Below, piece after piece: positions 15,752 to 49,767 of a stretch of DNA of 64,000 nt. The stretch is from Papaver somniferum (taxonomy: Eukaryota > Streptophyta > Magnoliopsida > Ranunculales > Papaveraceae): positions 156,356,210-156,420,209 of the forward strand of contig NC_039359.1 of assembly GCF_003573695.1 (NCBI RefSeq), read 5' to 3'. Every line of letters starts with the position of its first letter. Positions within the stretch are counted from its first letter, which is position 1. The notes below the pieces were generated by a model. The model was not told the DNA's origin and made no database searches. It saw nothing but the letters and a program-made list of their open reading frames with translations. Both the position numbers and the translations under genes were made by a program.

Positions 15752-16643
15752 TAGGGGTGTGTAACGGACGGACGGATGCGGTTTAGGAGTCACCCGCGTC
15801 CAAACCGTCAAAATTGGGGATTTGAAAAATCCAACCGTGTCCAGCCCAATCACCCGCGGCTTTGACATCCGAGGATCAATGGGTGCTACGGACCGGATGC
15901 GAATTAACCGCGGATTTAGTAAAAAAAAAAAAAACTAATTCTACGTAAGCCCAATTTTCATCAGGAGGTTAAGGCAAAGAGTACAAAGGAAAGGAGAGGT
16001 TGCGATTTTTAGTTACAGGTTTCACTAATATCAATATGGAAAAAAATATAAAACAGATTCATTCATTGTTCAAACTTTACAGTGCCCTACAAAAAGTTTA
16101 TCTTCAGGCTAGTAGACAAGCTTAACTTAATTCCCCCGAACTTCCTACCATCAAGTGCAAGCTTTGCCTTGACAGAACTTGTGGTGTCCACGTATTTTAG
16201 GAATACCAGAAGTAATTAATAGAACGACACAAAACTTATCAGCATCCACTGTTCAGAACTTAACAAATAATGAAATTATAAGTAGCTTCACTGATCGAAA
16301 ATGTTACAGCACAATATGAAGGAAAGCACCACAATAAATTACGTCAATACCTCAAGAAGAAAATAAGAGATGTTAACGTTTGAAGAAAACTACCAGAATA
16401 CTAAATTGGAGTGGTTCTTGTTAAGTATTTCCCTCTGTTTCTTCATTTCTCTTCATTGGTAAAGCAGCTAAGGTGCGCGTGGATCCGCGGATTTTAAAGT
16501 TCAACCTAACCAAACCGCTAAATGTGCGGATTTGAAAATTTCATCCGTGTCCGGTCCATTGATCTTGCGGATTGGGTTTCACCCGCGATTTTGCGGACGG
16601 ATACGGATGAAATCCGCGGTTCCGGACTTTTTGCTCACCCCTA
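15752..16643. mobile_element. non-autonomous hAT element
   Basis: About 892 bp bounded TAGGGGTG...CACCCCTA, the common plant hAT terminus. Subterminal regions at both ends are dense in CGGATGCGG / CCGCGGATTT and CACCCGCG motifs. Flanks CACCACAG and ACCACAAG look like an 8-bp target duplication with one indel. No transposase is present. Confidence 0.8.
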
Positions 16644-17880
16644 ACCACAAGGTTTCTCACCGTTCTCCTACGAACCCTCCCCCACCCCCCCTCCCGAACC
16701 GACTCCGCAAACATCACCTTCATCTCTGGATGTCCCATTTGCTCAGATTCTGTCCTTATCTTTAGACCCGAACCTCAGAAACCACAATCCCAATTAATTC
16801 CCACTCGCACTATGAATTTCAGTCCAGTTAGCCAATGTACATCACTCAGTTCAGTCAGATGAGGTGCTTCTTCTCCTTTCACTACTCTCACACTATTTGA
16901 TAGAGATTAACCTCTACCTATGAAGGGGACAATATGAACCAACACTGACGCTAAAACAACACCATTAGATAAAACGTTTGCAAACTGCAACTTACTTCCA
17001 AACAGACCTAGAAAAACATATAAAATATGCATTTCAAGATAAAAGATGAGTCACTCGTAAACATGCACTGGAATAAGAATTCAAATCATGCATACCTGGT
17101 AATACTGATAGGAATCCCAGCAGCAGGAACTTTTCCTTTTGTCATATATCTTCTTTGGTTATTCCTACCCTCAAATTTTGGCCGACCGTAACTTCATCTG
17201 GATGATTTGGCTGCTACACTGTCCTGAATCCAAATCAAACAAGAGAGACTGTAAATCAATGTGTATAATCAGACTGATCAGGATATGACAAGCATTTTAA
17301 GGAAATTAGACAGACACAAGGATTTTAGATGATAATTAAACAGGAGTATACATACACCATTTGCCACAGGTAACAACTAACAAACTGAATAAGCACATCC
17401 CAACATAGAACAAGAAGAAACATATATATTTTCTGAAAAGGGATGATCCGGCAGCAGTTTTGCATTTCGAATTCAAAACATTTACATAAACCATAATTTA
17501 ACTTCACATCATAAGCTTACTGTTAACATCCCATGGTTCATCTCTTTAACCTCGATGGGCATTTTTTTCATTCTCATCATCCAATGTCTTTGAACGTTCA
17601 TAAAAAGATTCACTAATATCAGACGCCGTGAAACGAATAAATTAATCCTTTTCTTCATCGAGAATTTCAATATCAGATTGCAATTTGTACTTCTCCATAA
17701 TCATTTTGCATCATCTCCTTTTTGTTGGTGAGTTGAAAATCAATTTCAAGCTTATCCTTCTCGTTGTTCAAAGATGCAGGAGGAAAACTAAATCTTATTC
17801 TTAAGAATATCAATGCATGGTAAATGTTGTCTGAACAGAACACACACAAAATAAATCAACAACTTGAAACCGAAATGTTC
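16644..17880. other. no confident gene; one possible minus-strand exon
   Basis: This is non-coding AT-rich DNA. On the minus strand, 17220-17098 could be an exon: it ends TTACCAG before GTATGC. It translates to a short basic segment with one stop, so I do not call it. It could be a downstream exon of the TAS3 transcript, which I cannot test here. Confidence 0.3.
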
Positions 17881-17992
17881 ATTTCACTTAAAATCTTGAC
17901 AGTACAGAGGATACAATTGTTATTACAAGAAACAAGAAAAATAGTTACATACTACCAAAGTTAGTTGAAGAAAGAGATGAGGGGGAATCGTA

Positions 17993-18013
17993 AAGCTCAG
18001 GAGGGATAGACAG
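17993..18013 (-). promoter_or_regulatory. 3' (cleavable) miR390 target site
   Basis: The complement of miR390 over its positions 1-17 without mismatch; the last four positions (miR390 18-21) do not pair. Pairing through the centre permits slicing between 18002 and 18003. Confidence 0.85.
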
Positions 18014-18107
18014 GAGATAGAAACTACTACAAAGAGAAAACTAGAAACTTCAAGTCGAAGTTGTTTGAAGGGTGTAGACAGCGGCCACATTCTGAAATTT
18101 TAGATTT

Positions 18108-18128
18108 TCGGACTTGCAAGGTCAAGAA
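18108..18128 (-). ncRNA. tasiR-ARF, phase position 6
   Basis: Minus-strand 21-mer beginning TTCTTGACCTTGCAAGTCC. It matches the first 12 bases of the canonical tasiR-ARF exactly, and 17 of 21 overall. Base 13 is C rather than U, which would pair with the G of the ARF target motif CTTGCAAGGTCAAGAA instead of wobbling. Confidence 0.85.
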
Positions 18129-18166
18129 AACTCCTTTTCTCGTTACAAAAGTAGTAGATCATATAA

Positions 18167-18187
18167 AAGCTCAGTTAAGATATCGCC
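18167..18187 (-). promoter_or_regulatory. 5' (non-cleaved) miR390 target site
   Basis: The plus strand here reads AAGCTCAG then TTAA then GATA, T, CGCC. Compared with miR390, only positions 9-12 and 17 differ. Central mismatches block slicing. Confidence 0.85.
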
Positions 18188-18421
18188 ATATTATTACTTA
18201 TACAAAAACACTATACTTCATCATCATCTTCATCCTGCTAGATATCATTTTCCAAAACATGCGAACCATCATCACCAACTGATACACAAAATTGCAGCAA
18301 GGGAAAAGAGATATTAGGGTTGATAATGATGAAGCTGCTGCTTGAAGCAGAATACTGGAGTCATTAAAGGAAAGAAGAGTAAGGTTGTGTTGGTGGTTGA
18401 TATGATAAGGTGGTGTGGTGA

Positions 18422-18428
18422 ATTTATA
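18422..18428 (-). promoter_or_regulatory. candidate TATA box of the TAS3 gene
   Basis: TATAAAT on the minus strand, about 235 bp upstream of the 5' miR390 site, so transcription would start near 18395. The assignment rests on position and sequence only. Confidence 0.4.
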
Positions 18429-18429
18429 T

Positions 18430-20560
18430 CAGAGTTTGTGTCAACATAAAACAGTAAAATAAGATACAGAGGATAATAAATAAATTGACTGTTTAAATTA
18501 AATTAAAAAAATTGACTGTTTCTAGGATTGATAGGTCATTCTCAGAAAAGAGATCTTTTATGATTTATGGCAGGGGGGACAGAATGGAGAAATCAGAATC
18601 ATGCCAAAGGCAAAATTTTGAAGAACTGTCTTTCTCATCATCAACATGCATGGGTCAAGCCTGGAAAATCAGAAGTCACGTGCATGCCTTTTCTACCCCC
18701 AACCCGCTTGGTAAATTTTCATTTCAAACTGTGGCACATGACATTACTTGCACAGACAAGCAATCTTAATTAATACGCTCGTTCTTGTCAGACAATCCTT
18801 TGCTTAAGTTGATACGATAAGCAAAAATTAAACCAGCAATAACATAGTAGAATAGGGAAGAAGTGACTACACCAAGTGTGATAGGCACAATAGTAGAGGA
18901 AGTGACAACACACATCTACAGCAACTGTGTGATCTTCGTATTGCATGCTTTTAAAAATACAGTCTCATCTTGGGAAGCGCTCGGCTGTAGATCAGAGATA
19001 TGTAAATTAAAGTCACTTTGGTGCCGCTAAGTATGATGTTATTCGTTGGGGACAATCAACCTTCTTTGCACACCCACGATGGAAAAGAGAAAAATGGAAA
19101 TGGAAAAGGGCATGATTTTGGCATGAATAGTATGTCGTCCACCATGAAGGCACTTGAGTACTTTCAAATTAGTCAAATGCAATAAAAATCACCGATCTCT
19201 GTACGTATCACAGAAAGAAAAAAAAATTGGAAGAAGATCGAAATGAAAAGTTGACATTCAAATTAAAAATAGTAAAAAATAAGTAGTGATGAGAACTTTT
19301 ATTACAACTTTGACCAATGGAACACCCACTTGTCTGTGATATCATGAGTATGTATAATGCATTCGCAAATAAGTTACTGCTGCAACAACCATCTTCACTT
19401 CTTCAGATCTCTCTCTAAAATATTATTACTGCCTGTCTCTTATGTCATCTAGTATATGAAAGCGAAGAGAGAAGTAAACAGAAACCAAAGACTGAAGCTA
19501 TTATAGGCATACTCACAAATGCTTTCAACTTTGTTGACTCTTCTTTTTGTCTCTCTTACTTTCATTCACTCTGCAACAGTTTCATACAAATAGAACAAAC
19601 CCTAATACCTATGTTTTATGAGTATTTAAGCTGTTATAAATAGAGGACAGAGGTCAGAGGATGATGCATTTCAGAAGAAAGAAAGGGTGACAGATAAAAG
19701 ATTGATAGGGCATTGTGAGGTCGACCTCACTATCAGTTTTGGATACATTGATAGTTGATTTTAATGCTTCTTGCCAGAAAGAAGATGGGGGAGACTGGAG
19801 AGAGAGATAGAGATTTTTTTTTGTGGTGACATTTTAAGAGTCTGTTCTGTCATCCCATCATGATGTGTTCAAATGGTCCTGGAGTATTCACTTTTGATTG
19901 ACTTCGGTTTTGTTTTATGCTGACCCAGCGATTGCATCTGAAAATAAAATGTTAAAATGGTTAATCCTTGATCGATGGGCATACAACTGGGCAAGTCCAG
20001 TCGAGCCTGGTTAAAAACCAGGCATGTTTTTTTCATTTATTAGGGTCCTAGGCATAATGAAATTCACTATGATTAAAACAGACAGTTTGAGAAACAGTAT
20101 CAGTGTATCTCGGAAGGATGTTCTAGGAATCTGTCAAAAATCATCTACAAGATCCATCCACCCAACAGACTGTGATAAATGGGTTAGTTGAACTCGGGAA
20201 AATAAGAAATCATCGATATAATCTCTCTTTCATTATTGTATAGATTGCATTTGGTAACAATATACCACTGTTGGAATTTATCCAAACAGCATAACAAAAA
20301 TTAGCTGCAAAACTTCTTCCGTACTTGACTAATCTGACTATCCTGAGAGGGTTTGTTTTAACCTCTTCTCTTACTTGTATTGGTTACTGTATATCACATG
20401 GTGACCACTTGCAATTTTATCTTTGCAGGTGAGAAATGAGAAGCTAACCTAAATCTTACATTTATAGAGCAGCGGAGACACGGCCATGGAATAATCTGAC
20501 ATTCCAATATTGCTAAATTTCTGGTGATCTCAAAAAATAAGTATTGATGATCACATGAAA
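18430..20560. other. no gene seen; upstream region of TAS3
   Basis: AT-rich non-coding sequence. It contains a perfect 16-bp palindrome GTGAGGTCGACCTCAC near 19715. Short frames at 18512-18773 lack domains. Part of it is presumably the TAS3 promoter. Confidence 0.5.
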
Positions 20561-27459: not shown

Positions 27460-30400
27460 ATGGAGCCGAATTCAACCTCAGGTTAGTTTTCTTTTGGTTG
27501 TACTTCAATCTAATTTTCAGGTATTGTTTCTGATGTTTAGTTTTTTTGAGTTTATGATTTGATGATATCAATTCGTATGACCTTTAGTTGATATTTTGTT
27601 ATATAGTAACTTTTGATTCTTGCGGTGATGATGATTTATTGTTAATACTTGATAAATTCGATTTTTGTTACTTGATGTTGATTTTTTTAGTTTTATGATG
27701 CATGATATGAAATAGAACTGATACTATATCCTAGTCTTCTATTTTTGTTCCAGTAAGATTCTGGAGCTTAGTTGATGGAGTATTATTATCTAGGTTTACT
27801 GTTACTTGATGTTTTTGGCATTTTTTAAATGTGTACTTTCATGTACACCGTTTACTTTTTAGGTTGTATGAAATTGAAGCTTCAGATGTTTATAATCATT
27901 TGTTTTGTAATATGTAGGGGTACCAAATAAGCCTGACAATTTTATTAATGTTGTTTTGAATCATGGTGAGCATTCTGTTGTTTTTCGTGTTAATACTAAA
28001 ATAACCATAGAAGAACTGAAGCATTTAGCATGCAAGCAGTGGAGGTCTTTGTCTCTTGGGAGTATATGTTTCAGCTATATGGACAATGCTCAAGTAGTTT
28101 TTGTGACAGGTGATATACAACTGCAAAGCTTAATTGGTTTCATGATTCTTATTGATAATGAAGATGTCTATTTGCATGTGGATATGATTCTGAATCATAC
28201 TTCTCGTTCTAAGTCTAGTTGTAGCAGAAGTTCTAGTTCTAAGTCTGGTTGCAGTAGTAGTTCTGGTTCTTGTTCTAAGTATGCTTGTGAAATTGAAAGT
28301 CCTAAGATGGTAAGGGTGTTAGATCATGATGCAGACAAGGGGAAGCCTCTTATTATCGATGAATGGAATTATCTATTTGACGAGATTGGTAGAGAATTCA
28401 TGGGTGGTGTTAAAGCTGTTAGGATTGCTGTCGATAAGTACAAGATGGCTACTGGTCACAAGACTGTTATTCTTAAAAATGACAAAACTCGTTTTACTGC
28501 AAAGTGCAAAGAAGATGGTTGTTCTTGGAGGATTCATTTTGGTCCTGTGAATGGTGATACTTCTCGGTTCGTGCTGAAAGATTCTAACGCTTACAGGTTA
28601 GTGGTTTTCATACTAGTCTCATTACTTATCTTTAGGTGTAAATTGTGCATCTTATATATGTAGATTTGTTTTAGGTGTATATTGTAGTGCACTGTACTTG
28701 TTGTACTCTTAAATTACATGTTTTTGCTTGGTTTTTGTGTATGTTCATAGTGTTGGTTTTGAGATCTTATTAGGTGTAAATTGTGGTGCACATTACTTAT
28801 TCCAGTTTTTTTTTTATAGTTGTGGTGTTGGTTTGAGGTTGAAGAGTCCTGCGGTGACAACCACGTTAGTCAAGCATTTGATCGCCGACAATTTACAGGG
28901 TGATCCTAGCTTAAAACCCAGACAAATCATGTCACTTTTCAAGAAAACTTATGGGTCCAATATTAAGTATCACCATGCCCGTAGAGGGAAATAAGCTGTA
29001 TTTGAAGAACATTATGGAGATGACGAGAAGTCGTATAGCGATTTTACTTAGTATGTCAAAGCAATTGAAGAAACTAATCCCGATAGCTATGTGAAGCTTG
29101 AAGTTGAGGATGGAACCAGTAGATTTCATAGGATATTCGTTTGTTACGGTGCTTGCAAGCATAGCTATAGGTATCTCAGGCCCATGATTTACTTGGACGC
29201 TACTTTCCTTACTGGTAGATACAAGGGTACTCTTAGAGCTGGCAAACAAGTTGAAACCCGCGGGTTAACCCGTGCCCGGACCGTGAAAACCCGAACCCGG
29301 ACCGGCTGGTTTCTAAACAAGTCGGGTTCGGGTTGGAGAAATGGTGACCCGTCAAAAAACGGGTTAACCCAGTCCGGCCCGTACAATCACGGGTTAACCC
29401 GTTAACCCGCACTTCGTTTTTGCCGGATGTCACTAATGTCTATACGTGTCTCCTCTCCTGCCAATCTGCCATGCAGCCATGGTATAAAAACAAAAAAACC
29501 CTACTTACTTCGTCTTCTCCGTCCACACTTCCCAGCGGCAGCCTCAGTTGTCAGTTCACAGACAAAGTTCTTTCGTCTTCTCCGTCTGCTACTACTTCGA
29601 TCTTGAAGGATTTGAGTCATTTGACTCTTGAGTATTCTCTGTGTAAGCAAGCGGGACTGTGGGTGTGGTAGAAAGACTGAAAGTGAAAGAGGGGAGATGG
29701 AAAATCCAATACGTAAAGGAAAACCCTATTTCTCTTTTATATCTGTAAATCCATGTTTTCAAAACCCTATTCTATTCTATATCTATAAACCCCTTTTCTC
29801 ATACCCTATTTCTCTTCATATCTTCAAAATCCCCTTTCTTCAAAACCCTATTTTTGATTTCAATTCTCATCAGGTAATGTTATGGTTTTCGAAAGTTAAT
29901 TTCTTTATGTTTTGTTTTCAATTTTTTGGATGTTAGGGGTTTGAATTTAATTTTTGTTTTTTTTTGAATGTAGAAGTCCTTCAGGTGCAAATTAATCTTC
30001 TAGTAATTTGAATTTCTCCATAACTTTGATTCTATTTGAATTGTTAGAGGTTAATTTCTTGATAGATTGTCCAGTAACTCCTTTCTTCAATTTCTCTGTT
30101 AAGGTTTCAATTGAAGTTCCTTTCTTTTTAATATTGTGTGGAAGACCTCCAGCCTCAAGGTGCAGTAATTTCTCAAAGATCTTCAGGTATAACATCTTGA
30201 TTAAAGATTGGTTTTAATTTAATATTTTCTATGGTTTTAGAATCTTGAATAGCGTTTCATACTTTACTTTCATTCGTGGTTTTATTAGGGATTTGCTTAT
30301 GTTTTATTAGGAATCTTGGATGGATGTTTTTATTAGCTCAAAGCCTCAAAGGCTCAAACTATGTGGTTTTAATTAGGGATTTGCTTATGTATGTGAATAT

Positions 30401-32869
30401 GTGATTGTGCATATTTTATTTTAATTAGAGCATGGATACAGTGTTACAGACACAATTACAGTTGGTTCTTTCTTTACATTTTCATTCATCTCAATTCTCC
30501 ATTCTCTAATGATTGTATATTTGTAACTTTGTATGCTATGTTTGGCAAGACCTAGTGAGTAGTGAGTAGTGACTACTGACTAGTGCTAGTGTGCTACCTC
30601 CTACCTTGAAAGAACAAAGTGGGGGTTTATTATGTGAACTTCCTTGTTTGATGTTTCTTTGTTGAGTATCTAACATTCCAAGTCCATGACTGGGTTTTGG
30701 TTGTTAAAGCTTAAATTGTGTTTGTTAAATTCAACAATGCAGCATAAATTGTTGATGTACTACATGCTTCAGGCTAGTTTCATGTATTCAAGATAATAAT
30801 GTGTATGGTGGATAACTGGATATCATCTTATTATGCTCTTCATTTGTGTGTAAAACTGTGAATTGTGATAAACTGATAATGTTACTATGAGTCTGTGACT
30901 GTCAATTGAATGGGATGCAAATTGCAATGCAAGTAAGTGGTTGTTAATATCTTTATTGTTGGACACAAAGTCATAAAGTACAAACAGTTATTTATCACTT
31001 ACCAGTGTCTCCAAATATTGCATACAAAAGAGATTGGAGATGTTTTTTTGGACAGTAAACACTTTTTTTGATTAACCACACAATATATATTTTGTGCGGG
31101 AAGTGGTTGTTAATATCTTTATTGTCGCACTTGGTGATACAAATTACAAACAATGGTATTGCTACAGTCTCGGAGGATTTTTTTTCTTTGTTGAAAATAT
31201 CATCATGAACTGATGAAGTACTGTAACTAAAGTATTAAACTACTAATGACTAGTATTTGTGTTCCTTTAATCCTTTAAATGCAAAAGTAGTTTAGTTTTG
31301 CAATTTTGAGTTTTTGAATCGAAATATCAAATGAATTAGATGAAATGATGAATGTTAAATTAAGTACTTAGGTTGGGAAGGAGCTTTAGATGGCCTGAAT
31401 GTGGCCGGAAATAGCCCAGAAATCGATTTCTGGCGAGTTGACTCAACAAAAACCAGCTAACCCGTGAGCTCTCGTGAACCCGCAAGCTTTACCCAGGACG
31501 GGCGCGGGTTGGAGAAATGACCACCCATGAAGAATTTCAACCCGCAAGCTTAGGCTTGTATTAACCCGTAACCCGCGGGTTGGTCACAAGCCAGCCCCGG
31601 CCCGCACGTTTGCCAGCTCTAAGTACTCTTAAGAATGCAACATGTATCAACGGAAACAATGAGTTTTACCTATTTTCTTTTGCTATTGTTTCTTCTGAAA
31701 ACAAAGATAATTGGTTTTGGTTTCTGGAGAATTTTCAACATGTTGCCGATGGTCGTCCGATTGTTTTCCTTAGTGATCGTCATGAAGGACTTCTGCAGGG
31801 CATTCCAAAATATTTTCCTAATTCACATCACATCTATTGCTTTTACCACATCAAATGCAATCTCCCCATTGGATCAGGTGATGCGAATTCGAAGCCCGTT
31901 CTTGATTTGTTTTACAAAGCTGTGTACTCTTACACGCCAGCAAACTTTGAAGAAGCTTTGAGGGGAATACATGCAATTGGAGATGGACATGTTGCTAACT
32001 ATATCAGAACTATTCCAAAGGAGAAATGGGAAAATGAGTTTTTCCCTGTATGCAGATATGGTGCTCACTCTTTAACTCTTGCCGAGTCCATTAACAACTG
32101 GGTTCTTCCTTTCAAAAAGTTGCCTGCTTTTGTTCTTCTCGATGCGGTACGGTGAGTTTTATGTTTAGTTTTTTATTTATGCAAGTATGTCTACATTATT
32201 GCATACATGGATTTGCTTGTTTTGTAGATACTTGTACACGTGTTCATCTGTGATTCTGCAACTGTGTGTACATTATTGTACACATGGATTTCCTTAATGT
32301 GTACAACTATGTACACATGTTTTATCCGTATTCCTTCTGGATCATGTTTTTGATTTTATTTTTTGTGTTTTTATTATGTTAGTTTGAAGGTTATGGAGCA
32401 AATATCTGAGAGAAGGATACTAGGTCTGGAAACATTCAACACTAGGCTCACTCCTGAATATGAGGCTTTACTAAAGGAAAACATCGACATTGGTCGTACT
32501 TGGACTGTTGTTCAGTCCATGGAAAGATTGTATGAAGTCAGGTCTCCCCGGACTCATTCTGTATATCTATTGCAGAAAACTTGTACATGTCACAGGTGGC
32601 GAGTGAATGGTTTTCCTTGTGCGCATGCTTGTGCTGCCATTCAAGCTACTAGAGAAGACATCTATTCATTTGTTGAGCCATACTTCACCACCGAATGGTA
32701 CAACATGACATACCAGGAGATCATCTTTCCAATCCCCAATTATGACAAGCCGCAGTCTTATGATCCTAGTGATAGGGTTATTGTTCCTATTCATGTTCCT
32801 CCACCAGGTAGACGAAGAACACAGCGCTTCAAGAATGCATATGAAAAGAAAAAGAGGAAAATGATGTGA
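27460..32869 (+). pseudogene. MULE transposase (mudrA-like), broken by stops and a hAT
   Basis: Four exons can be joined in frame: 27460-27481, 27918-28596, 28820-32151 (minus the hAT at 29234-31621 and one target-site copy) and 32383-32869. Order of domains: a PB1-like N-terminus, a serine-rich linker, the MuDR DNA-binding domain (FMGGVKAVRIAVDKYKMATG, then CKEDGCSWRI), a catalytic domain with IYLDATFL (first Asp, codon 29196-29198) and FLSDRHEGL (second Asp, codon 31774-31776), and a SWIM zinc finger CTCHRWRVNGFPCAHACAAI near 32583-32640. Family length is kept. In-frame stops at 28992-28994 and 29049-29051 plus the hAT inactivate it. It would catalyse cut-and-paste transposition in the nucleus. 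Confidence 0.9.
29234..31621. mobile_element. 2.4-kb non-autonomous hAT inside the transposase exon
   Basis: Termini TAGAGCTGGCAAAC ... GTTTGCCAGCTCTA are inverted repeats. Flanks GGTACTCT (29226-29233) and AGTACTCT (31622-31629) form an 8-bp duplication with one change; deleting the element restores the reading frame YKGTLKNATC. Subterminal regions are packed with CGGGTTAACCCG motifs. No hAT transposase or other convincing coding sequence is inside; 29490-29930 looks like a plant leader with CCCTATTT repeats. Confidence 0.92.
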
Positions 32870-34550: not shown

Positions 34551-35769
34551 AGTAACTATACATGACATTTCTTATTTGTTTTGAGAAACTTACACATGCA
34601 GTAGGACTCATAATTTCACATCTCAGGTACTTTTTTCCATCTGGAGGACGAATGCTATCTCTGACAAGTGCTCTTCTACGTCGATGGATGTAGAACTGGA
34701 GTACCTCCTGGTCCAGATATTTGTTGAACATCAGTTCACGAAGTACTCTTCCAACAATCAAAATATCTTCCTTGACTGTTGGATCATCCAGGCTTGTTAG
34801 TTTCCAAGCTACAGAGCTGCGGAAACATAAAGGAAATGTTAACATGGTGTACAAATTTGTGCACATAAATTTTTTTATAACATTCAATCATGGTGTTTTG
34901 CGAACTTACTCCAGGCTTGCGTAGTCAAAGAATTTTTGTACCCTTTTTTTGTCTTGTCCTGCTTGCATAGCTTGGTATAGTGGTGATAGACGAACATCTG
35001 GCAATGGATTGTGAGGACAATATACATCTCCCTTTCTCTTTATTGGCGCAGGATAGCATGGTTCTCGTCCCTCTTTGATCCTCTTGCCTTTTGGATCTGA
35101 TTTTATCACTACTCATTTGGTATTACCCTCGGCAGTGAAATCAGGATCTAGCTTTCTTTTTGCATTTCTCTTTTGTGGTGTCTTGGACAACTTACCAGCG
35201 GCTTGTGTCTTCAACATCTCTTCTTCCTTCATCCTCCCTGCTCTTGTCCTCAATGGAGTCGTCTTCTCTTCTTCTACCTCTTGGCTGCTAAAAAATTCAC
35301 TAGGATTTTGTTGAATGAACTGCACTGCTTCTTCAATGATCCTTTCTCGTACATCTTCATTGGATAATGATTTTTGCGGCGAATCTTCTTTTGGATCTTC
35401 TTGGCTCAATAATGCAAAGCTTGGACAATAGTGGCGAATCAGGGTTGCCATATTTTCCTTCACTTCAGATGGTGCCTTTCTGTAACAACCTTTTTCAAGC
35501 TTTACGAACACAGTTTCAGACAAGTTATCTAGAAGGTCCTCAATTGATGTATAAGTCTCATTCTGTGATTCTTCTCCTTGTGTGAGTAAAAGGACTTCTT
35601 TAGGATCCAACTGACATATGTCTTCAGCTGCAATTATGGTAGCTTCATCAATTTCAGTTGTTCGAGTGCCATCTATCATATTCTGGTCATCAAGGTTCAC
35701 TTGGTCTTGTTTATCTTCATTGATTACACTTGTCTTTGGCATTGAAGTATTGAAAAATGAAATTTTTAT

Positions 35770-35900
35770 GAGAATTTTCAATGGTGTACAGAGTTTTACA
35801 CCAATGTACAGGTATGTACACAAATTCGGAAGAAGTCATAAAGTTTTGAGAAAAGGTATTAGCTTTCACACACTGGTGTATGACTATGTACACACATAAA
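35770..35900. repeat. GTGTACA palindromes, protease-gene intron
   Basis: Units near 35784-35822 (three overlapping arms) and 35875-35895, inside the intron between the acidic exon and the next one. Confidence 0.65.
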
Positions 35901-35939
35901 AAAATAAATGACTTGCAAATTTAAAAAAACTGATGTTGT

Positions 35940-36420
35940 ACCTTTGCTTTTCAGGAGTTTCAGACGGAACTTCATTCCTTTCAGATTCAGTTCCATGCTC
36001 GTCATCACCACCTTTGCTACCCTCTTTGTCATTGTCATGATCATGCGCATCACCACCCTTGCTACCCTCCTTGTCATTGTCATCACCATCATCATCATTA
36101 TTATCATCATAATTATGGTCATGCACATCACCATCTTCATTGTGCTCCTCCTTGTCATTGTCATCACCATCATCATCATCTTCCTTGTGCTCCTCCTCAA
36201 TCTTGTCATCCTCCTCCTCCGCCTCCTCCTCATCAATCTCATCATCTTCCTTGTGCCCCTCCCCATCCTTCTCATCCTCTTCCTCATCCTCATCATCCTC
36301 ATAAATATCCTCGTCTTCCTTGTGCTCCTCCCCATCCTCCTCATCCTCCTCCTCATCCTCATCATCCTCCTCAATCTTCTCATCCTCCTCAGTTTCAAGC
36401 CGTATTTCCTTTGCACATTT
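35940..36420 (-). repeat. trinucleotide-type low complexity coding for acidic residues
   Basis: TCATC/TCCTC repeats on the plus strand, read as E/D runs on the minus strand within the protease gene. The plus-strand hydrophobic frame here is a shadow. Confidence 0.75.
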
Positions 36421-38019
36421 GAAGATTTCATTCAAAGTGTTATTACGGAAATCATTAACTTGCCTTTCTGTCAAGTTCATTAGACCAACTTCATTAACTT
36501 TTAGTCTTTTCTATTCAATGAAACTAAGAAGCCTTTCTTGCCTATCCAGAACTTCAGTAAGCTCCTCATGCAACTCATTTCTTCGCATATCTGAAATGCG
36601 CAGCTTTTCCTTCACAACATCTATGTTATTTTCTTGTTTGTGCCTCCGGTACTCATCCAAAAGCAATCGCTCTTCATCAGTATAAGCCTTCACCCATCCT
36701 GGTTGCATCTGAAAACATGCCAAAGTGTCAACATTGATCACGGGTGTACAATTTTTTACACATGTTGCAAGAGTGTACATTGTTGTATAAAAGACAACTT
36801 TCTTAAAATCTATCAACAATGTGCAATCATGTACACCTTCTTAAAGGTGTATATCAATGTACATATACTATTCTAAGAAAGTTTTTTGAGATACCTTTTT
36901 CATGCAATCATTCAGTTCTTTCTCGATTGTATTACTGACATCGCTGATGATCCACCTAAGAAGCCTTGTCACACCTTCCTCATTGCTTGGATTCATGCTT
37001 TTGTTGTGTTCAGCAAACCAATGTTGCATTAACAAATAGGTGAATAGTTAGAAATGTAAGAGCAAGGAACAAACACAATGAACAGAATTATTTAAAATGG
37101 TGAATGGATATGTCAGGTGTACAACTGTGTGCACATGTAAACTCACCAACAGATAAAGCACACAACCATTAACTTTAATTGGTGAATCCTAAAGTTTCTT
37201 AATGCTCGCCATGATATACTCATGTATATGAACTGGCCAGCAAGTTCTCTTCATCATATCCAAAGACTCAAAATAGTGTGCAACTTGTTCTTGCTAATCA
37301 TACTTCCGTTTGCCTGGGTAAAAAAGACAGTGATACACAAGTACATAGTAAACAACACCACTAAATCTCCAGCATTTCTTTCAATCTCCATTTTCGACTT
37401 TGGGTTTAGCTTCATGATACGTACGATTTCCTCCTCCAGATCTTTTTTTCCCAGCTCAGTTCGTTTCTTAAGAGTCAATCTGTTTATCAGCGGACCGTAT
37501 CTTTTTTCAGCTGAAGTTTTTACATCTTCCCCTTTTTCAACTTCCATTGGCACCATCTTAATCCCATAAAATAGAAACAAATCCTCAGGTTCACTCTTTA
37601 CTGCCACTTGCTTGTTCTTCTTGGTAGTATCAAACATGAAATAATGTCCCCCCGAGTCACAAATTTCATGGCGGTACTGTCTCACAATTTTCAGAATTGA
37701 GTTTGGGTTCTTAGTCCATATATCATCTCTCTTTTTACTTGTATCTTCCTCATCTTTCCGGTCTGCTTTTTTGTGGACAAAGATATCTATAACAGGCCAG
37801 AATGGTCCTTCTTTTTGCTTCTCTAGTTGATAATTGGTGAACCATACTTTTTTTCCTCTTTTTGTTTCATCTTCCTCAAGGTTTTTATTCACAAAGTCAC
37901 TGAAGGCATGGAAACTTGACCTATATGGTTTGTTGGTATCTACGAAAATGAACCAAGAAGAATAATACATTCATTATACTCATATAAGTACAAATCATAT
38001 CACTATACACATAAATAGG

Positions 38020-45609: not shown

Positions 45610-48600
45610 ATTCGAATACAAACATAAATTTATCTCATGTACCTCTTAATGGTACCAACTATGTAGCATGGGCAAGAGATGTAACTTTATCTCTTGGTGG
45701 GAAATCAAAACTTGGTTACATTAACGGAAAAATTAGTCGACCAAGTGATGATAAGAAATTAGAAGAATGGATTTCTGAAGATCATCTTGTTATGACTTGG
45801 CTTCTCAATTCCATGGAACCAACTATTTCAAACGTTTTTAACTTCTCTGATTCTTCAAAGGACATGTGAGATTCTATAGCCAAGTTATATGGTCATCAAA
45901 ATAATGTCGTAAGGATATTCCAGCTGCAACATGAAATTGCAGCAGCAACTCAAGGCGATAAACCCTTTATTGAGCATTATGGGAACTTGAAACGAATGTG
46001 GGATGAACTAGCTATTTATCGACCACATACGATAGATCCCAAAAGTACTTCTTAAGCGCGCTGAAGAAGATAAAATTTTCTCCTTACTTCACAGCTTGAA
46101 GCCTGAATATGAAGCTCTTAAGAGTCATGTATTGATGAACTCGACCGTTCCTTCACTTTCTAGGATTTGTGCTACTATTCAGCATGAAGAAACTCGAAAA
46201 GAAGTCATGGACTCCAAATATGTTCATGTTAGAGAGGAATCAAGTGCTCTTGTTATTGAAGGAGGAAAGTCATATGGTAATCGCAATAAGGGTCAAGGGA
46301 AACGAGAAAACCGTTGTGATCATTGCAATAGAACTGGGCATACAAAGGATTGTTGTTGGCAGCGTCACCCGCACTTAAAACCCACGTTTGACAGCAATAA
46401 AAAGAAAGAACAAAAGGAACAAGCCGCTGTAGCTGATACTTATATCACTTTAAGTCAGTTAAACCACATTCTTCAACAATATAGTAAGTCAACAACAAAG
46501 TCATCTGAAAACACTTCTACTAATGCTTCAGGTATTCTCCAAGCCTATCTTACTTTGAATCATAAAATGAATAACTGGATTGTTGATTCTGGAGCCACTG
46601 ATCATATCGCAAACAATCCAGATTCAGTCCATTCGTTTAATTCTAATTGTGAAAAGAAAACGGTTTCTGTTGCTCATGGAAAATATGTACCCATTTTAGG
46701 AAGTGGTAAAATTAAAATTTTTCCAAACTCTTCAAGTGATGATGCTTTAGTTGTTCCATCATTTCCTGTTCAACTGTTATCGGTAGGGAGAATTACAAAT
46801 TCATTGAATTGTAATGTTTTATTTACTCCTACGTCGGTCATATTTCAGGATCGATAGACGAAGAAATTGATTGGTGGAGGAATATATTTGCATGGGATCT
46901 ATCTGTTTAATCCCTGCAATTTTGTTAACACAACTTTGCGTACTACTAGGTCATTGGACAATCAGATTCTATACTATCGTTTGGGGCATCCGTCTTCTCG
47001 TATTTTGTCGAGTCTTTTTCCATCTTTGTCAGTTGTATAAACTGTTTGTGATGCTTGTCAATATGCTAAACAAGCTCGCTTACCATTTCATAAATCAACA
47101 TCTGTTTCTAGTGAACCATTTGCTTTAGTTCATTCAGATTTATGGGGTGCTACACCTATTGATTCCTATGAGGGATACAAGTATTTCTTAGTATTAATTG
47201 ATGATTTTTCTCGAGCAACTTGGTTATACTTATTGAAATCAAAAACTGAAGTGTATTCTGCTTTTATGGAGTTTCATGCTGTGGTGGTTACTCAATTTTG
47301 TGCTAAAGTTAAGGTGTTTAGATCGGATAACGGTACAGAATTTGTCAAAGGTTCACTTCCTATTTTTCTTAAAAATCAAGGGATTATTCATCAGTCTAGT
47401 TGTTTGGGAACGCCTCAACAAAATGGGGTTGCCGAAAGGAAACTTAGACACATTCTTGAAACATCCAGCGCCATTATGCTTCATATGAATGTACCGAAAA
47501 AATACTGGTCTCATGGGGTTTTAACGGCTACCTATCTAATTAATCGACTACCTAGTCGTATTATTGAATTCAAGTCCCCGCTAGAAGTTTTAAAGGGTTA
47601 CAAGCTTGCTATATCTCACCTGCGGGTCTTTGGTTTTGTTTGTTACGTGCATCTCCAAGCAATTCACCGTGATAAGCTAGACCCCCGAGCAACTCGTTGT
47701 GTAATTTTTGGTTATTCATCGACCAAGAAAGGATATATATGCTGCAATGTTACTTCTCGAAAGTCGGTTGTCTCTCGTGATGTTAGGTTTGTTGAAACAG
47801 AATCGTTCTTCCGTCCAATGCTTGATTCCGAGATTCGCTCTCAGGGGGAGTATTTAGGTGATTTAACACCGGTTGGTTTTTTACCACTTCCAACTGGTTG
47901 TGCTCCGACAACAAGTGAACCAAACGTATCTTCAAATAATGAGGATATATTTCCAGTTGGTAGTGACATGATCTCTCCCTTAGTATCTGAACCCAAAGAG
48001 GTGTCTAATGGTGACACGATTCCACCTGAGATATCACCTGCAGAACCATCTACTCCAGTTCCTCCTATTTTACGACATTCGGGAAGAGATCGTCACCCAC
48101 CAGAAAAGCTAAAAGATTATGTCACATATCACACAGTTTCATACCCTATAGAAGATTATATAACATATGATAACGTCACTCAACCTCATTTTTCATTCTT
48201 AAGTGCATTATCAAATGAACGTGAACCCACAAATTTTAGAGAGGCTAACTCAAAACCAATTTGGAGGAAATCCATGAAAGAACAATTACAAGCTCTTGAT
48301 GACAATGATACATATGATATTGTCAAATTGCTGGTAGGGAAGAAAAGTGTTGGATGTCGTTGGATATACAAGATCAAGTATAAGAGCGACAGAACCATTG
48401 AACGGTACAAATCTAGATTGGTGGATAAGGGATTTACTCAGACCTATGGAGTTGATTACACGGAAACTTTTGCACCTGTAGCAAAAATGAATACATTTTG
48501 AGTACTTCTATCTTTGGCAGTCAATCAAGGATGGAAATTGTTCCAAATGGATGTCAAAGATGCGTTTTTACATGGAGATTTAGAGGAATAAGTGTATATG

Positions 48601-49767
48601 AGTATACCCCCTGGTCACCCTCAAGATACTCGGTATGGGTATGCTTGTAAACTAAAAAAGGCAATCTATGGTCTTAAACAGTCGCCACGAGCTTGGTATG
48701 CGAAATTGAGTGGTGTTCTCAAGACTAGTGGGTTTAAAACAAGTACTGCAGACCCATCCCTCTTTATTAAAAAAGGAATGACAGGTACCATTATTTTTTT
48801 GGTTTATGTCGACGACATTGTTATCACTGGTGATGATCAACAAGGAGTCTTGAAGTTAAAGGCATTCTTACATAAAAAGTTTGCCATTAAAGACTTGGGT
48901 ATATTGAAGTATTTTCTTGGTATAGAGATGGCTTATTCAAATAAGGGTATATTTCTTAACCAAAGAAAATATGTTATAGACATGCTACATGAGAGTGGAA
49001 AGATGGGAATAAAACCATCTAACACCTATTGATAGTGGCAACAAACTTGGTGATGATGGAGAGCTAGTGTCAGATATTGGTTTGTTTCAAAGACTGGTAG
49101 GTAAACTAATCTATTTGACCATCACTCGCCCAGATATCTCGTATGCATTGAGTTTGGTTAGCTGATATATGCATGCTCCTAAAATCAGTCATATGCATGC
49201 AGTCGATCGAATTATCCAATATCTGAAAGGCTCTCCAGGGAGAGGTATTTGGATGCGAAAAAATGGCCACAGTTCTGTAACGGCTAGTTGCATAACTGCG
49301 TATACTGATCCTGATTATGCTGGTTGTCCAGTAGACAGGAAATCTACAACAGGCTTTTGTACTTTTGTTGGAGGAAATCTAGTTACATGGAAGAACAAGA
49401 AACAAAATGTTGTCTCTAGATCAAGTGCCGAGGAAGAATATCGAGCAATGACATCAACTACTTGTGAGATTATTTGGCTCCGTTCCCTTTTAAGATATTT
49501 AGGGTTTGGTTCTTCTCAACCAGCAAAATTGTTTTGGATAATCAAGCGGCAATTCATATAGCATCAAATCCGGTATTCCATGAAAGGACCAAGCACATTG
49601 AAGTAGATTGTCATTTTATACGTGAGAAATTGAACGCCAAAATCATTTTAACTCCTTTTGTTCGCAGTGAGCAACAGTTAGATGACATCTTCACGAAAGG
49701 ATTACCAACTGCGAAGTTTCGTGAAATACTGGGCAAGTTGGGTTCAATTGACATTTTCGCACCAACT
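45610..49767 (+). pseudogene. copia gag-pol polyprotein, many breaks
   Basis: Gag begins near 45610 (NYVAWARDVTLSL region) and has a stop replacing Trp near 45868 and another near 46053. The zinc knuckle CDHCNRTGHTKDCC is near 46315. Protease: WIVDSGATDH, active-site Asp at 46585. After a stop at 46855-46857, the GAG-pre-integrase (RLGHPSS) and integrase follow with HSDLWG, RSDNGTEF and QNGVAERK. Reverse transcriptase has FAPVAKMNTF, MDVKDAFLHGDL and YVDD at 48805-48816. RNase H includes AEEEYRAM, then a frameshift near 49540 before VDCHFIREK and DIFTKGLP, stopping at 49768-49770. Stops near 48499, 48589 and 49030 add to the damage; no enzyme could be made whole. Confidence 0.92.

Follow-up and report, generated by a model that had tools for sequence, protein, structure and literature searches.

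TAS3 has been called arguably the best conserved phasiRNA locus of plants, and it is described as keeping auxin response factors in check while leaves and flowers develop (PMC5902766). In Arabidopsis TAS3a, two tasiARFs occupy steps D7 and D8 (as cited in PMC4680215). TAS3 genes with one tasiARF have been published for apple (PMC3446319), litchi, tea, cassava (PMC4124141), and sacred lotus (PMC4254747), and the short family represented by apple MdTAS3-2 is said to be kept in many dicots (PMC3446319).

The locus described here lies in a window of 64,000 nucleotides of Papaver somniferum DNA (contig NC_039359.1), which is the whole stretch that was analyzed. On the minus strand, a 5' miR390-complementary site, a tasiARF-like 21-mer, and a 3' miR390-complementary site follow one another in that order from 18187 to 17993 (Table 1). 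With a probability that we put at roughly 0.9, this interval is a TAS3 gene, whose transcript is predicted to yield siRNAs against ARF mRNAs after being cut at the 3' site and diced. Unlike Arabidopsis TAS3a, the poppy locus has a single tasiARF. Its less usual feature is the combination of that single tasiARF with a 5' site predicted to be uncleavable. The initial annotation had seen both parts of this combination without picking it out as the odd one; the features that it did flag, the limited pairing of the 3' site and the lone tasiARF, are mostly ordinary among TAS3 genes as published.

Table 1. Features of the poppy locus, in window coordinates
Feature	Position	Strand	Basis
Candidate TATA box (TATAAAT)	18422..18428	-	Consensus match only; 5' site about 235 nt downstream
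24-codon short ORF, possible ribosome-loading ORF	18198..18272	-	10 nt between the end of its stop codon and the 5' site
5' miR390-complementary site, predicted bound and uncut	18167..18187	-	Pairing map, duplex energy
Predicted 21-nt phased siRNA region	18003..18166	-	3' cut back to the 5' site, computed 21-nt steps
tasiARF-like 21-mer, predicted siRNA 5'D6(+)	18108..18128	-	Exact 16-nt core, register, ARF3 pairing
3' miR390-complementary site, predicted sliced	17993..18013	-	Unbroken pairing at nt 1-17, duplex energy

Layout, register, and chance expectation

Pairing and register were recomputed from the minus strand of 17700-18500. From the coordinates, the locus measures 195 nt from outer edge to outer edge, with 153 nt between the miR390 sites. 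Counting 21-nt steps upstream from the predicted 3' cut, D6(+) falls on 18128-18108, which is exactly the tasiARF-like 21-mer. The initial annotation had placed all three signals together on this strand and had named the tasiARF as the sixth siRNA; every coordinate it gave for them was correct, and the step count from 18003/18002 returned the same siRNA. Steps D1 to D7 fit completely between the 3' cut and the 5' site, and 4 nt of D8 (18170-18150) fall within the 5' site. The distance from cut to cut, which the initial annotation had not given, is 174 nt, or 8 x 21 + 6, so that a cut in the 5' site would be 6 nt off the 21-nt register. With the two registers 6 nt apart, the tasiARF is in phase only from the 3' cut, which agrees with an uncut 5' site. 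Within the D3 step (18045-18065, minus strand), a short near-palindromic sequence (AACTTC..GAAGTT) is predicted to fold into a hairpin.

Expressing each element as an expected count per window allows chance resemblance to be assessed. From base composition, 3.6e-6 exact copies of the 17-mer of the 3' site and 1e-4 exact copies of the tasiARF core are expected. The 3' site was the one exact match in the window to the complement of miR390 nt 1-17; the next best place had 4 mismatches. The 16-nt tasiARF core likewise had one match on both strands at up to 2 mismatches, and that match was exact; at the same tolerance, the core also turned up in 13 of 100 dinucleotide shuffles (mean, 0.16). Outside the 5' and 3' sites, every place in the window had 7 or more mismatches to the miR390 complement of 21 nt. 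Taken alone, the 5' site carries little weight, as 0.49 places per window are expected at up to 6 mismatches to the full complement; its value comes from its position immediately past the tasiARF on the shared strand and from mismatches that fall centrally. Pairs of a 3' site and a core (each at up to 2 mismatches) within 400 nt, in any register, did not occur in 200 first-order Markov windows (400 strands), and the register match adds a further factor of 1 in 21. A search of viral and prokaryotic contigs for the paired tasiARF and 3'-site pattern gave no matches, as expected. Taken together, the three elements with their order, strand, and register are very unlikely to have arisen by chance, and the TAS3 reading of the initial annotation is supported on each of these counts.

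The same figures bear on whether the interval could be a chance resemblance or a protein-coding target of miR390. Open frames of 58 to 90 codons do cross or adjoin the region, which would fit a coding target; those across the sites themselves lie at 17923-18099, 18010-18282, and 18096-18317. The Pfam scan near the locus covered the frame at 18198-18428, just upstream of the 5' site, and that frame had no match at E<=1. Chance is opposed by the rarity of the exact 3' 17-mer, and a core in register would make the joint pattern rarer still. We give chance resemblance and a coding target, taken together, next to no probability.

The miR390 sites and the tasiARF-like 21-mer

The 3' site (CTGTCTATCCCTCCTGAGCTT) pairs with miR390 nt 1-17 and is mismatched at nt 18-21, with a duplex energy of -33.0 kcal/mol. 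Slicing is predicted between 18003 and 18002, and the pairing at nt 9-12 would permit cleavage. The initial annotation had reported that pairing stops at nt 17 and had called this unusual. The first part stands, but the second does not: with the TAS3-R cloning primer printed for longan, nt 2-17 are paired and are followed by a mismatch, a G:U pair, and a mismatch (PMC4680215). As that primer may derive from a consensus of other species, it documents a nt-17 end in published TAS3 sequence without tying it strictly to longan.

The 5' site (GGCGATATCTTAACTGAGCTT) is of a different character. It pairs at miR390 nt 1-8, 13-16, and 18-21, with mismatches at nt 9, 10, and 17 and G:U pairs at nt 11-12, giving 5 mismatches to the full site, two of these G:U. 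Its duplex energy is -26.0 kcal/mol, compared to -44.3 kcal/mol for a perfect site. The central mismatch that had been noted for this site therefore holds, in the form of two mismatches followed by two G:U pairs.

The tasiARF-like 21-mer (TTCTTGACCTTGCAAGTCCGA) starts with U, as AGO1-loaded siRNAs do. Slicing depends most on a part of the tasiARF that does not include nt 17, 20, and 21. It is at these three positions that the poppy 21-mer is mismatched to ARF3 site A of Arabidopsis (sequence from a primer in PMC2694355); the other 18 of 21 are paired (nt 1-16 and 18-19). At nt 17, where the poppy tasiARF mispairs with the Arabidopsis ARF site, that of Nicotiana forms a pair and that of longan a wobble. 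The presence of a tasiARF-like 21-mer, as originally proposed, is thus confirmed by the exact 16-nt core and by its pairing to ARF3 site A.

A second tasiARF was sought at D5 and D7 and was absent, with identities of 6/21 and 8/21, respectively; among phases D1 to D8, no step besides D6 resembles a tasiARF (best, 8/21). The initial annotation was correct that there is one tasiARF, as the core occurs once in the window and D5 and D7 are unlike it, but it was mistaken in treating this as an oddity, given the one-tasiARF TAS3 genes published for several dicots.

Some of these features would also fit a decayed or silent duplicated copy of TAS3, in which the three elements are remnants that are no longer transcribed or processed. 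The nt-17 mismatch to the Arabidopsis ARF3 site and the missing second tasiARF at D5 and D7 could be read as decay, Mutator-like, Copia, and reverse-transcriptase-like domains occur elsewhere in the window, and a recently dead copy would look identical in sequence. Decay is countered by the elements themselves: measured against miR390 and the Arabidopsis ARF3 site, nt 1-17 of the 3' site, nt 1-16 of the tasiARF, and the register are all unchanged. We consider a dead copy to be very improbable and favor a TAS3 gene that would still be processed.

Transcript context and neighboring sequence

For such a TAS3 gene, the pathway as published (PMC12127299 and PMC5902766 among the sources) predicts the following course. 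A Pol II transcript would begin near 18400. AGO7-miR390 would dock at the 5' site without cutting it, because nt 9-12 there are mismatched or G:U, and would slice the 3' site at 18003/18002. SGS3 and RDR6 would then turn the upstream fragment into double-stranded RNA, which DCL4 would dice from the cut in 21-nt steps, the sixth step being the tasiARF. With its 5' U, the tasiARF would load into AGO1 and lead to cleavage of ARF3/ARF4-type mRNAs.

The upstream sequence is compatible with this course, in that the candidate TATA box and the 24-codon ORF fit a short Pol II transcript open to ribosomes. An ORF that ends just before the 5' site recalls the ribosome loading described for TAS3a. In Arabidopsis, removal of the ribosome-bound regions is reported to lower TAS3 transcript and siRNA levels but not the efficiency of miR390 cleavage (PMC12127299). 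The short ORF is not counted as evidence here, both because cleavage efficiency was not lowered in Arabidopsis and because, in 145 of 2,000 shuffled leaders, an ORF of 20 or more codons likewise stopped no more than 12 nt from the leader end.

The predicted fold of the precursor is ordinary (z = 0.20), with 118 of 200 shuffles folding at least as well, which speaks against a hairpin precursor of the miRNA type. No MIR390 sequence was found in the window (0 matches at up to 3 mismatches to the miR390 complement, on both strands), and a tRNA scan of the window found none. At the gathering threshold, Rfam had no matches anywhere in the window, so that a well-formed TAS3 locus that the Rfam library does not detect can be added to the poppy genome. 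When the Rfam threshold was relaxed for 17000-19500, the only match was SNORA61, at 21.8 bits versus 74; this sub-threshold match was attributed to chance.

Several other features of the window were recorded. Just downstream of the TAS3 locus, at 17000-17855 on the minus strand, splice-like motifs can be seen by eye, with acceptors near 17832 and 17223 and donors near 17522 and 17098; they surround short frames with stops. This could be a spliced 3' part of the transcript or a gene remnant, and two frames scanned there with Pfam gave no significant match. About 1.4 kb downstream of the locus is an inverted repeat (16517-16634) with 37-nt arms that are 73% complementary and 44 nt apart, possibly a remnant of a small transposon.

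Pieces of a Mutator-like (MULE) transposase lie at 27911-32869 on the plus strand, with DBD_Tnp_Mut, MULE, and SWIM domains in separate ORFs. Frames of a Copia-type polyprotein, also in separate ORFs, lie at 46036-49561 on the plus strand; the ORF at 47041-48501 encodes integrase and reverse transcriptase domains, and the organism names shown for its relatives are plants (best 120 of 704, many without an organism name). Together with the Mutator-like and reverse-transcriptase-like domains, these frames mark a plant genome that carries mobile elements.

Two minus-strand ORFs located 17 to 20 kb from the TAS3 locus resemble poppy proteins. The ORF at 37254-37970 matches a P. somniferum protein at 92% over 70% of its length and another record at 95% over 97%, with two of its three matches from P. 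somniferum. For the ORF at 35113-35835, all 10 matches are from P. somniferum, the best at 90% over 53%. By themselves, the matches of the two ORFs would place the DNA, with probability and not certainty, in Papaver or a near relative within Ranunculales. Neither ORF had a Pfam match, and the ORFs of 35113-37970 adjoin a very acidic low-complexity frame. From these matches, they look like members of a poppy-restricted multicopy protein family that has received many unrelated automatic names.

Comparison with published TAS3 genes

Sacred lotus (Nelumbo nucifera) is another eudicot outside the core groups. Its TAS3c gene is described, like the poppy locus, as having two miR390 sites and a lone tasiARF, which is D6 when counted from the 3' site (PMC4254747). 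The 5' sites differ: that of lotus pairs better at nt 10, 11, and 19 and is called cleavable, while nt 9-12 of the poppy site are mismatched or G:U (PMC4254747). The phase of lotus TAS3c is also described as starting at two positions (10 and 12), with the better tasiARF shifted by 2 nt, a further difference from poppy (PMC4254747). In apple, the MdTAS3-2 short family resembles the poppy locus in having one tasiARF between two miR390 sites and a phase predicted from the 3' site; its region is given as about 190 nt, and its 5' site as described has no mismatch at position 10, where the poppy site has one (PMC3446319).

These likenesses raise the question of whether the poppy gene is a one-tasiARF TAS3 of the apple or lotus type, with both miR390 sites cut and either able to set the register. 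A single tasiARF, a compact layout, and the D6 position shared with lotus TAS3c would all be expected of such a gene, and 5' RACE of cassava TAS3c is reported to have recovered ends in both sites, with most clones off the canonical position (PMC4124141). The poppy 5' site argues the other way with its mismatches at nt 9-10 and its G:U pairs at nt 11-12, where apple TAS3-2 is described without a nt-10 mismatch and lotus TAS3c with extra matches at nt 10 and 11. A cut in the poppy 5' site would also open a register 6 nt off the tasiARF, and because the registers differ by 6 nt, a two-register locus is not favored. We regard cleavage at both sites as very improbable and retain the TAS3 gene with a 5' site predicted to be bound and uncut.

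Cassava and castor bean TAS3c are likewise described with a single tasiARF between two miR390 sites; there, 190 nt are given between the sites compared to 153 in poppy, and the tasiARF is named D4+ (PMC4124141). The figures of about 190 nt in the apple and cassava papers rest on measures defined differently between the two papers, and the poppy values are 195 nt outer to outer and 153 nt between the sites.

Closer in its 5' site is longan DlTAS3, with a centrally mismatched 5' site predicted to be uncut, a 3' site that is cut, a tasiARF at D6, and 158 bp between the sites compared to 153 in poppy (PMC4680215). The longan 3' cut is stated to be verified (PMC4680215). In contrast to poppy, where D5 has no resemblance to a tasiARF, longan is described with tasiARFs at D5 and D6 (PMC4680215). 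Arabidopsis TAS3a shares with poppy the two-hit layout, a 5' site that is mismatched (at nt 9-11 in TAS3a) and uncut, and a short ORF outside the siRNA region (PMC12127299, PMC5902766, and PMC5907777). Judged from its predicted pairing, the poppy 5' site is of the Arabidopsis and longan kind.

Placed against the two described classes, the poppy locus has the single tasiARF of the apple-type short subclass without its cleavable 5' site lacking a nt-10 mismatch, and the centrally mismatched 5' site of the two-tasiARF class without its adjacent tasiARF pair. The locus was not filed under the apple-type short subclass because the 5'-site feature described for that subclass was looked for and is absent. 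As a TAS3 gene, it falls outside both the apple-type short subclass and the two-tasiARF class. The find is ordinary apart from a single binding site that is mildly unusual, and it leaves the known mechanism unchanged.

One possible account, which we put forward tentatively and think somewhat doubtful, is that the locus is a short-type one-tasiARF TAS3 whose 5' site has switched from cleavable to hold-only, a natural intermediate in an early-diverging eudicot. If so, it would join the single tasiARF of one class to an AGO7 docking site that stays uncut, as in the other, and would show that the number of tasiARFs evolves separately from the cleavability of the 5' site. That the two can diverge is already hinted in print: tea TAS3b is described with two tasiARFs and a 5' site that seems cleavable in degradome data, a divergence in the opposite direction, and both kinds of 5' site are reported among the TAS3 paralogues of spruce (PMC5902766). 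The mosaic in poppy of one tasiARF and a 5' site predicted to be uncleavable is relevant to the relationship between the two TAS3 layouts of angiosperms.
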